Virus record (IMG/VR): IMGVR_UViG_3300046557_000243
Span: 1 to 38,988 of that record
Reading direction: 5' to 3' (one strand)
Length of the DNA: 38,988 nucleotides
DNA from: a virus
Shown in pieces: positions 16,771 through 30,595 of the stretch; position 1 is the stretch's first letter; every line of letters begins with the position of its first letter. The notes beneath the pieces were generated by a model, which saw only the letters and a list, made by a program, of their open reading frames with translations, did no database searches and was not told where the DNA came from. A program made the translations under genes and the position numbers.

Positions 16771-16800
16771 AATCTACAGGGTGTATATACACCATGTCAA
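16771..16800 (-). promoter_or_regulatory. Integration-operon promoter with embedded palindrome
   Basis: Minus strand: consensus -35 TTGACA (16800-16795), 18-bp spacer, -10 TAGATT (16776-16771). The spacer contains the perfect 14-bp palindrome GGTGTATATACACC (16780-16793). A repressor bound there would cover both promoter elements. The RHH protein of the same operon is the obvious candidate. Confidence 0.75.
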
Positions 16801-16925
16801 CAGGGGATGTCCGGGGGTTTTCTGGGGGTTTCGTGGGAAGCAGAAAAACCCCTAGAACTTAACGGTTTCAGAGGTTTCATGAGTTGAGTCTATAGGGTCG
16901 TGGGGGGATTTTCTCGGTTTATGGG

Positions 16926-16963
16926 GGGATCCCCGGCAACTTCCTTGAGTTACCGGGGATCCC
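16926..16963. repeat. Imperfect 16-bp inverted repeat beside the attP core
   Basis: GGGATCCCCGGCAACT (16926-16941) pairs with AGTTACCGGGGATCCC (16948-16963), one mismatch, 6-nt loop. It ends two bases from the tRNA-like core. It may be a transcription barrier or part of the attachment architecture. Confidence 0.7.
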
Positions 16964-16965
16964 GG

Positions 16966-16991
16966 GGCGGAGACGGGGGGATTTGAACCCC
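16966..16991 (-). other. attP: attP core, copy of a tRNA 3' end
   Basis: On the minus strand this reads as the T-loop TTCAAAT, the 3' T-stem CCCCC, acceptor strand CGTCTCC, discriminator G and CC. The 5' side of the T-stem is already broken (GGGG then AT), so only the tRNA 3' end is carried. The acceptor sequence suggests a tRNA-Ser target, which is an inference. Integration here would restore the host tRNA end. The site is 1 kb from int. Confidence 0.75.
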
Positions 16992-17147
16992 ATCCTAAGT
17001 ACCCCCTTTTGTACCCCGTTTCCCGCGTCAATAAAGGGAAGTAGGGCCTATTGGGCGTCGACAAATCCGCTAAATTCCCCCGCACAAACCGGCTCAAACC
17101 GCACCAGATCCCCCCATTGGGGGGATGAAAAAGTGCCGCCATCCCTG

Positions 17148-17520: not shown

Positions 17521-19521
17521 TTAGACGCCGAAGCGGATCCCGTCGAGCAGGACCTTCTTCGTGGATGCTACCGTGCCGTAGAGCTGGATGATTCCGCCGC
17601 TGGTGATGTTGACCTGTGACCGTCCGCCGGCCCCGTCGTCCACTGCCACGGCGAGCCGCCGCGTTGCCGTGGGCCGGAAACCTACCGGCAGTGTTCCGAT
17701 GGTCATGCCGGACGTGTACGCGCCGGACAGGACGAACGAGCCCTGGAGCGCCACGAACGTCCCGCCCTCAACGAGGGTGCATTGCGGGGTAGTCCAGCCG
17801 ACTGCGGCCGCCGGGTCGAGGGGGATCGCCGTCCATGTGTTGGAGCCTGTCGTGACGAGCTGCCACGGGCTGAACGAACCGTCCCCTTGGACGTTGGTTT
17901 CGTAGACCCGGACGTTGCTGCCGGCGCCCGTGTTCCTGCGAAGGGTCACAGTCCGAGCCCCGCCCGGTTCCGCCGGGCTGACGAACATATGCCACCCTGC
18001 TATGCCAGGCGCGGGGTGATCCGTGAACGTCGACGAATCCGCGGTCGACATGTAGTAGTACCCGGCTGTGAATGCGGGGCTGCGGAGTGTGGTTACGCCG
18101 TAGGGGAGCCGCTTCGTAGTTCCGGTGTTCTCGGTGAGCTTGTGCGCCTGGACCTTCTGCATCCGCGTCCCAAGGAACTTCGCCTCATTGCCGAGGGAGT
18201 GGAAAGCATATGCCTTGTAGTTGCGCCGCCCGGACTCGCCTGTCACAACACCAGCGAACAAGGACTTGGCGCCCGTGACCGGATCCTTGTAGAGATAGAT
18301 GGATTCGGGTTCGCGGAAACCGTCTTCGTAGACGCCGTCAGAGTTCCGGCCAAAGTCCACCGTGATGCGGGAGATGATCTCGCCCGTGGTGAAGCTGAAG
18401 CGGGTTATCTCGTGCGGGTATGTGGCGCCGTTGTTGTCGCCCGTGTTCCAGTAGAGGTCGTCCCCGTCGATGGTTGCGCCCTGGAAGTAGTCCAGTGCCG
18501 CGTCACCCGGCGGGATGAGCACGGTCCCGAGAACACTGTCGATCCCGGCTTTCACGTCGGAGATGCGGCGGAGCTGCACGGTCTGCACGTCGCCGGCTTT
18601 GATGCGGAACGCGATGAGCCCGGCCTGCTGGTCGGTGAACGCGGAAACGTATTCGGTGGTGAACCTGTTGTATTCGACGAGTTCGGGGGAGTTCTGGTTG
18701 TAGATCGCGCCGGGGACGTACTTGTAGCGGACGAGCTTGTTCCCGGTCTGCTTGCCGGTGGCGTCGGCGATGTCGTAGTTTGACCAGATGTAAACGTCTG
18801 TGCCGATGGTTTCGAGGCCGATGGTGGTTCCGTGCCCGCCGTGGTTGAGCCTCATCGAGTCGATGAGTTTGCCGCCCATTGTGAGGCGTGACAGCATGTA
18901 GGACTCGGTGGAGTCGGGGTTGCCGTTCGCTACCTGCGTCGCGTAAATCTCGTTCGTGGTCTCGTTGATGACAAAGCACTGCAGCACGGTCGTGTCAGCG
19001 AGGTTGAGATTGTCATAGAACGTCGGCGAAACGGACGTGTAGTCGAACTCGGCGGACTTCCGGTTAATCACAGCGTCAGCGTAGCGGGCGTCGAGTGCGG
19101 CCCGGGTGGCGCTGCCTTCCCCGTTCACGACGGCGGCTACTGCGGTGTCAGCCGGAGCGCCCGCTAGGGCCGCCGATGCGGCTGCAGCGCCCGCGGCCAG
19201 GGTTGCCTGCTGCGCGGAATCGGTGGCCGCGGTCTGCGCGTCTACGGCTACGTTCTTCAAGCCCTCATAGGAGGTAAAAAAGCCTGTGAACCCGCCGCCT
19301 GACCATGCGACCCGGTCGAGGGTTTCGTGAGTGAAAGCGCTGGCGAAGCCGTTGGCGTTGACAGGGATCGGGTTGGCGAGCGGGGAGCCGTCCGGCGCGG
19401 TGATCGCGAGTGGCGTCATTGTCGCGTCGCCGGGGGCGAAGATCGTTACGGTCGCATCGCCGGCAACGTTCTCCGGGTTCGATGGGTCCGCGGCGAAGAT
19501 CTGGTCAAATGTGTAGGCCAT
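17521..19521 (-). CDS. Tail fibre / receptor-binding protein with TagC-like propeller
   Basis: Protein of 666 aa, ATG at 19521. The N-terminal domain (MAYTFDQIFAADPSNPEN, then VTIFAPGDATMTPLAITAPD) resembles structural attachment modules. An Ala-rich linker follows. The long middle (LNLADTTVLQCFVINETTNE, then LNHGGHGTTIGLETIG, FREPESIYLYKD) matches the beta-propeller of TagC-like and P68-type receptor-binding proteins. The C-terminus is beta-rich, like a fibre tip. It probably recognises cell-wall polymer on the host. It is the last late gene, after the holin. Confidence 0.85.
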   Translation of the reverse strand: MAYTFDQIFAADPSNPENVAGDATVTIFAPGDATMTPLAITAPDGSPLANPIPVNANGFASAFTHETLDRVAWSGGGFTGFFTSYEGLKNVAVDAQTAATDSAQQATLAAGAAAASAALAGAPADTAVAAVVNGEGSATRAALDARYADAVINRKSAEFDYTSVSPTFYDNLNLADTTVLQCFVINETTNEIYATQVANGNPDSTESYMLSRLTMGGKLIDSMRLNHGGHGTTIGLETIGTDVYIWSNYDIADATGKQTGNKLVRYKYVPGAIYNQNSPELVEYNRFTTEYVSAFTDQQAGLIAFRIKAGDVQTVQLRRISDVKAGIDSVLGTVLIPPGDAALDYFQGATIDGDDLYWNTGDNNGATYPHEITRFSFTTGEIISRITVDFGRNSDGVYEDGFREPESIYLYKDPVTGAKSLFAGVVTGESGRRNYKAYAFHSLGNEAKFLGTRMQKVQAHKLTENTGTTKRLPYGVTTLRSPAFTAGYYYMSTADSSTFTDHPAPGIAGWHMFVSPAEPGGARTVTLRRNTGAGSNVRVYETNVQGDGSFSPWQLVTTGSNTWTAIPLDPAAAVGWTTPQCTLVEGGTFVALQGSFVLSGAYTSGMTIGTLPVGFRPTATRRLAVAVDDGAGGRSQVNITSGGIIQLYGTVASTKKVLLDGIRFGV

Positions 19522-30190: not shown

Positions 30191-30595
30191 CTATAAGGGT
30201 CGTGCAGTGACGAGGAACGTCGCTGTGGCCTTGTTGAGCGTGTCGGACTGGTAAGGGACATCGGCGGCAGTGATGTCCGCCTCGATACTGTCGATGAAGC
30301 CGGATCCGGTTTCGATGTCGGTGCCGATAATGGAAGCGGCAATAGACACGAGGGTCCGTTCGGCGTCCTGGCCGGGCGCGTAAACCTCGATCGTCGCCCG
30401 GTCAACCTGATCCACAAACCCGCGGGTGCCGCCAGTGACGTAGATAAGCGCGATCGGGAACGGGCCCTGCAACGCGCCGTAATCGTCCGCCGGGAGCTGG
30501 TAAACCGCCCGGACAGGTTCGCCCAAATGGACCGCCCCGTCGATCAGGTCGAATAGCGCGTCCCGCGTGTCAGGGAAGACTAGAGCGTCAATCAT
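30191..30595 (-). CDS. Tail terminator / tail completion protein
   Basis: Protein of 134 aa, ATG at 30595 overlapping the previous stop (ATGA). Sequence LVFPDTRDALFDLIDGAVHL, FPIALIYVTGGTRGFVDQVD, then RATIEVYAPGQD, fits the alpha/beta tail-terminator fold (Gp17-like). It caps the tail tube and mates with the head-closure proteins. Function is inferred mainly from order, directly before the major tail gene. Confidence 0.8.
   Translation of the reverse strand: MIDALVFPDTRDALFDLIDGAVHLGEPVRAVYQLPADDYGALQGPFPIALIYVTGGTRGFVDQVDRATIEVYAPGQDAERTLVSIAASIIGTDIETGSGFIDSIEADITAADVPYQSDTLNKATATFLVTARPL

Follow-up and report, generated by a model that had tools for sequence, protein, structure and literature searches.

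The RHH (ribbon-helix-helix) fold and family are already known, as are autoregulating RHH repressors as a kind. CopG and ORF56, the plasmid copy-control repressors, are minimal RHH proteins of ~45–55 aa that autorepress from a symmetric operator, and the Arc and Mnt repressors of phage P22 control the immI/ant region. Arc contacts its bases through Gln9, Asn11 and Arg13 (PMC12645479), and E. coli RelB, an RHH autorepressor acting at the relBE operator, recognises hexads of the form [A/T]TGT[A/C]A (PMC2812701). Among integrases, intS of KplE1 is served by its own promoter beside the att site, which is repressed by Int and the RDF (PMC2951348).

The locus described here belongs to an IMG/VR virus record of 38,988 bases (the window), and its closest annotated relatives, by DNA around the operon, are Arthrobacter phages. 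It contains an integrase operon whose second gene encodes a 49-aa RHH protein. Comparison across some fifteen related phages makes it likely that this protein is an autorepressor, dimers of which would sit on the palindrome GGTGTATATACACC, block RNA polymerase and lower transcription of the whole operon, including the integrase.

The integrase operon and its promoter

The operon consists of five minus-strand genes, encoding p76, the RHH protein, proteins of 48 and 103 aa, and a tyrosine integrase (Table 1). The original prediction of a minimal RHH protein as the second gene and of int at the end of the operon is therefore confirmed; its count of four small genes preceding int is also right, one of the four being the RHH gene itself. 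The overlap between adjacent starts and stops points to translational coupling. It had further been suggested that the small genes may be part of the control. Of this we see no sign, since the genes other than the RHH gene are not conserved as a set in relatives. An IPDEAVEAAA-like motif is found in small proteins that recur around RHH and int genes, often several per operon; examples are the fourth gene of the window, gp31 and gp33 of Arthrobacter phage MrSmee, and proteins in L126, L131, L136 and G008.

Table 1. Features of the integrase operon and its surroundings in the window
Feature	Position	Strand	Basis or remark
Terminator-like hairpin upstream of operon	17510-17478	-	Shields operon from read-through of minus-strand gene 17521-19521
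Candidate attP	16901..17126		Core like tRNA 3' end at ~16970-16993, TGGGGGGAT repeats on both sides; separate from operator
Sigma-70-type promoter of integrase operon, TTGACA-N18-TAGATT	16771..16800	-	Consensus scan; -35 TTGACA 16800-16795, -10 TAGATT 16776-16771, spacer 18; layout kept around operator in relatives
Proposed operator GGTGTATATACACC, within promoter spacer	16780..16793		Inverted hexads GTGTAT/ATACAC; recurs upstream of RHH relatives
p76, first gene, 76 aa	16730-16500	-	Homologs in phage BillyTP and L131, both without RHH
RHH putative repressor, second gene, 49 aa	16503-16354	-	Profile, fold, comparative pairing with operator
48-aa ORF, third gene	16357-16211	-	No match in family search
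103-aa protein with IPDEAVEAAA-like motif, fourth gene	16214-15903	-	
Tyrosine integrase, fifth and last gene	start 15931 or 15916, stop 14792	-	PF00589 E 1.4e-17; phrog_1 E 1e-59
Terminator-like hairpin directly after int	14781-14754	-	

The promoter had been described as TTGACA-N18-TAGATT with a perfect palindrome in its spacer, and this is what the minus strand contains. The window has no perfect 14-bp palindrome other than GGTGTATATACACC, and ~4.6 would be expected by chance under a first-order Markov model of its sequence. As a lone sequence feature GGTGTATATACACC is thus not significant, and its significance comes from the comparative data given below. No further copy is found in the window with up to three mismatches allowed, and so there is no wider regulon here. 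Since terminator-like hairpins bound the operon and the operator is unique in the window, these sequence features fit the proposal that integration would be controlled separately from the main repressor.

Assignment of the 49-aa protein to the ribbon-helix-helix (MetJ/Arc/CopG) superfamily holds on both profile and model. In a profile search it matches phrog_6506, 'Arc-like repressor', with an E-value of 1.5e-8, and it scores 18.2 bits against Pfam RHH_1, just under the cut-off of 20.5. The AlphaFold2 monomer model (pLDDT 87.5) has helices at residues 14–27 and 31–48 and an extended N-terminus in which a strand is not assigned. The best PDB matches of the model are RHH proteins, namely PutA, CopASO (TM 0.8), AmrZ, Arc and CopG, with Foldseek E-values above 0.03 for so short a chain.

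Pairing of RHH protein and operator

When the window RHH was used as the sole query against viral contigs (IMG/VR), six loci were returned (L125–L130), and all six have GGTGT-N4-ACACC upstream, inside the spacer of a promoter, with a single mismatch in one. The exact GGTGTATATACACC occurs in L125, L127 and L130, and a version with one mismatch in L126; these four sites lie in TTGAC-type promoters 280–430 bp upstream of the RHH gene. At the equivalent position L128 and L129 have TTGACAC-GGTGTCATGACACC-CGC-TAAAGT, a version with a CATG centre. Additionally, gp27 of MrSmee, an isolated phage of A. globiformis B-2979, is 71% identical to the window RHH and is the last gene of an operon preceded by TTGACT-AC-AGTGTATATACACC-C-TAGAGT. 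A profile search adds the RHH loci L134 to L142, and the site was found in L134, L135, L136, L138, L139 and L142, two of which are not independent (L139 and L142 are the L107 and L088 phages, first found via the palindrome and included in the profile); no recognisable site lies near the RHH genes of L137, L140 and L141. A scan of genome contigs gave two loci only. The best promoter around the site scores at least 10 for 15 of 16 operators, as against only 0.06% of random positions in the same loci; across the MSKGT-type group the operator is thus flanked by the -35 and -10 boxes.

The pairing also holds from site to protein. Viral contigs were scanned for exact matches to GGTGTATATACACC (ATAT centre), to GGTGTCATGACACC (CATG centre) and to a scrambled control, GTGGTATATACCAC. 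An RHH gene lies within 2 kb of 12 of the 119 ATAT sites among the matches listed, 38 of the 101 CATG sites and none of the 118 scrambled sites, and with the window RHH as the only query the sites near an RHH number 9 (ATAT, among the matches listed), 20 (CATG) and 0 (scrambled); the site counts include near-identical contigs and tandem copies, so that the effective numbers are smaller. The exact motif GGTGT-N4-ACACC occurs at 13 sites in 18 phage records, and each of the 13 is upstream of an RHH gene of the window type. The palindrome is thus found repeatedly before the RHH genes of related phages, in both operator types. As a separate observation, paired copies of GGTGTCATGACACC, ~26 bp apart and 50–120 bp ahead of the start codon, precede further RHH genes, mostly MPNVEKTPRQTIRV- or TSKGTDRRTIRV-like (L172, L176, L178, L195, L200, L213, L216, L227, L230, L231 and L241).

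Protein and site are likewise absent together. L131 encodes p76 at 88% identity behind the same TATCGGAACAAG leader and a TTGCAT-N17-TAGAGT promoter, and neither the palindrome in this promoter nor an RHH in the L131 record is present. Neither RHH nor operator is present in the Arthrobacter phages Bauer and BillyTP. The int operon of BillyTP, which has p76 and no RHH, has in front of its first gene an inverted repeat of another sequence, TTGCGCACGCGCAA (L003:5279-5292; BillyTP 30529-30542), and given this difference another regulator may serve there.

The contact residues of Arc align, by eye, with His7, Thr9 and Arg11 of the window RHH. In L128, an Arg7 protein accompanies a CATG-centre operator. 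After L128, the question of whether Arg7 and CATG go together was set down beforehand for the second RHH of L127, which also has Arg7, and the outcome agreed: its TTGACA promoter carries GGTGTCATGACACC as the operator, 284 bp upstream. Arg7 occurs with C and G at operator positions 6 and 9 in L128, this second L127 protein, L133, L134 (GGTGTCAAGACACC), L136 (GGTGTCCTGACACC) and later L194, and His7 or Val7 with A and T at these positions in ten proteins. Fisher's exact test of residue 7 against operator centre gives 3e-4 (5 vs 10, with kinship uncorrected). Within the MSKGT-type group the operator therefore covaries with residue 7, a predicted DNA-contact residue. MPNQPKTP-type RHHs whose position 7 holds another residue are seen with both operator types, and this mixed subfamily led us to reject a universal residue-7 code. 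The RelB hexads resemble GTGTAT and GTGTCA, and the A/C letter in the RelB motif is the letter that varies among the present operators.

Two phages carry the module twice. L127 has two RHHs and two operators (His7 with ATAT, Arg7 with CATG) on opposite strands, at G003:4213-4226 and G003:6233-6246; these are apparently orthogonal circuits, the Arg7 one directly before int. L355 (G008:11500-22500) has two RHH copies, both with Arg7 and Ser9, each behind an identical GGTGTCAAGACACC operator (G008:13046 and G008:18410), with int within the second operon. Taken together, recurrence, coupled absence, two pairs in one phage and residue covariation lend strong comparative support to the proposed RHH–palindrome pairing and to autoregulation.

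Integrase placement and alternative readings

The placement of int was taken from PF00589 positions and local gene maps. It is downstream in the RHH operon in the window, in the L107/L139 phage, behind the second RHH of L127 (which overlaps int) and the second RHH of G008, and in L194; in L125 it probably belongs to the RHH operon as well, the genes being mostly co-directional over 2.8 kb. Four phages (MrSmee, L126, L135 and L138) have int immediately upstream of the RHH promoter, L136 has it in convergent orientation, and a distance of many kb separates it from the module in L128, L130 and L142. No serine recombinases were found in the relatives. Because placement varies in this way, control of integration is a recurrent, not a universal, use of the module. 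Bauer shares the integrase (78% identical DNA) yet has neither RHH nor operator, which indicates that RHH control is dispensable for integration. Bauer (L002: gp32, gp39) and BillyTP (L003: gp37, gp42) each have two genes annotated as tyrosine integrase.

RHH and operator could instead form a mobile, self-regulating accessory cassette that targets mainly small genes, with int included by location and integration not meaningfully timed. This reading draws on the phages in which int is upstream of the promoter or many kb away, on the cassette of L128, which appears amid structural genes, and on Bauer and BillyTP, which have int and no cassette. It is harder to reconcile with the order operator–RHH–int in at least five phages (the window, L107, the second RHH of L127, G008 and L194), seen with both operator types, and with int adjoining the cassette in four more. 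We consider it a genuine possibility, albeit one we lean against.

Binding of the palindrome by Int, excisionase or the main HTH repressor instead of by the RHH protein is much less probable. Integrase promoters are often under Int and RDF, as for KplE1 intS (PMC2951348), and the core of the candidate attP lies ~170 bp upstream of the promoter. However, the att region is common to Bauer, and despite this and the shared integrase the palindrome is absent from that phage; in L128, L130 and L142, moreover, the site is far from int. The site thus follows the RHH gene and not int. As arm sites for Int the TGGGGGGAT repeats are more plausible than the palindrome, which was rejected in that role on the Bauer comparison. 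Elsewhere in the window, ARAGORN places a tRNA-Asn (anticodon gtt) at 1055-1127 on the minus strand.

It is similarly improbable that the RHH protein is the antitoxin of a toxin–antitoxin pair and the palindrome its usual operator. RHH antitoxins such as RelB do autorepress from very similar hexads (PMC2812701), there are weak RelB/ParD matches, and the RHHs of L130 and MrSmee have longer C-termini, so that for these two the reading may still apply. The 49-aa protein, however, is without the toxin-binding tail of a type II antitoxin and has no adjacent toxin gene; in the family search its operon neighbours matched no toxin or defence family, and they are not conserved. Finally, chance, which would readily supply a palindrome at the expected frequency, is refuted by recurrence at the equivalent place before RHH relatives and by the zero in the control scan.

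Proposed mechanism and known counterparts

Three results rest on comparison: RHH and operator occur as a pair, the operator lies in the promoter, and residue 7 is linked to the operator's centre. What we infer is that the protein binds and represses, that one transcript extends as far as int, and that infection sets off a pulse. Two RHH dimers, one per inverted hexad, would cover the DNA separating the -35 box from the -10 box and thereby block RNA polymerase, so that transcription of the genes for p76, RHH, the 48- and 103-aa proteins and integrase would fall. Upon infection of a cell that contains no RHH, the promoter would be active until RHH accumulated and closed it. The integrase dose would then be self-limited, and in the lysogen int would be kept low by a route that does not depend on the main HTH repressor.

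Autorepression by the RHH protein is well supported by these sequence comparisons, and int is very probably co-regulated with RHH in the window phage. That the operator–RHH circuit is dedicated to timing integration, as originally suggested, is only partly supported, as int is in the RHH operon in several phages and outside it in others. We tentatively extend the idea, at somewhat less than even confidence, to exchangeable RHH–operator cassettes in temperate phages of Arthrobacter and other actinobacteria. These might be dedicated, self-limiting controllers of integrase dose, kept apart both from one another and from the immunity repressor by a one-residue code in which His7 reads GTGTAT and Arg7 reads GTGTCA, with L127 running two orthogonal circuits.

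In the open-access literature, outside which most subscription papers lie, we found no description of RHH–int operons, of the present operator family or of the residue-7 relation; a search on GTGTATATACAC returned no literature, and the papers returned for GTGTCATGACAC look unrelated. For an RHH subfamily that seems not to have been characterised, the analysis thus offers a well-supported pairing of protein and operator together with a residue predicted to set specificity, and in several phages it ties this pair to integrase expression that lies outside the immunity circuit. Confirmation would make orthogonal repressors of very small size available for use in actinobacteria, and would supply a testable explanation for the way phages of this kind limit their integrase dose.

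Arc and Mnt of P22 are, like the window RHH, small phage-borne RHH repressors, and the contact positions align (PMC12645479); in the present case the operon includes an integrase gene, and its promoter spacer contains a perfect palindrome of 14 bp. CopG and ORF56 are both in the fold-search list for the 49-aa protein, but they control plasmid replication genes, not integration, and their sequence identity to the window RHH is low. The hexads of RelB, in 12-bp inverted pairs (PMC2812701), resemble GTGTAT/ATACAC and GTGTCA/TGACAC, while its toxin-binding tail and toxin partner have no counterpart seen in the window operon. KplE1 intS has its own negatively controlled promoter beside an att site (PMC2951348), as the window integrase probably does, and differs in that Int and RDF are the repressors there and a separate RHH protein is implicated here. 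Finally, MrSmee gp27 and the IMG/VR relatives belong to the same RHH subfamily and have the same operator-in-promoter design; MrSmee differs in having the RHH gene at the end of an operon of seven genes, with int located upstream of that operon's promoter.
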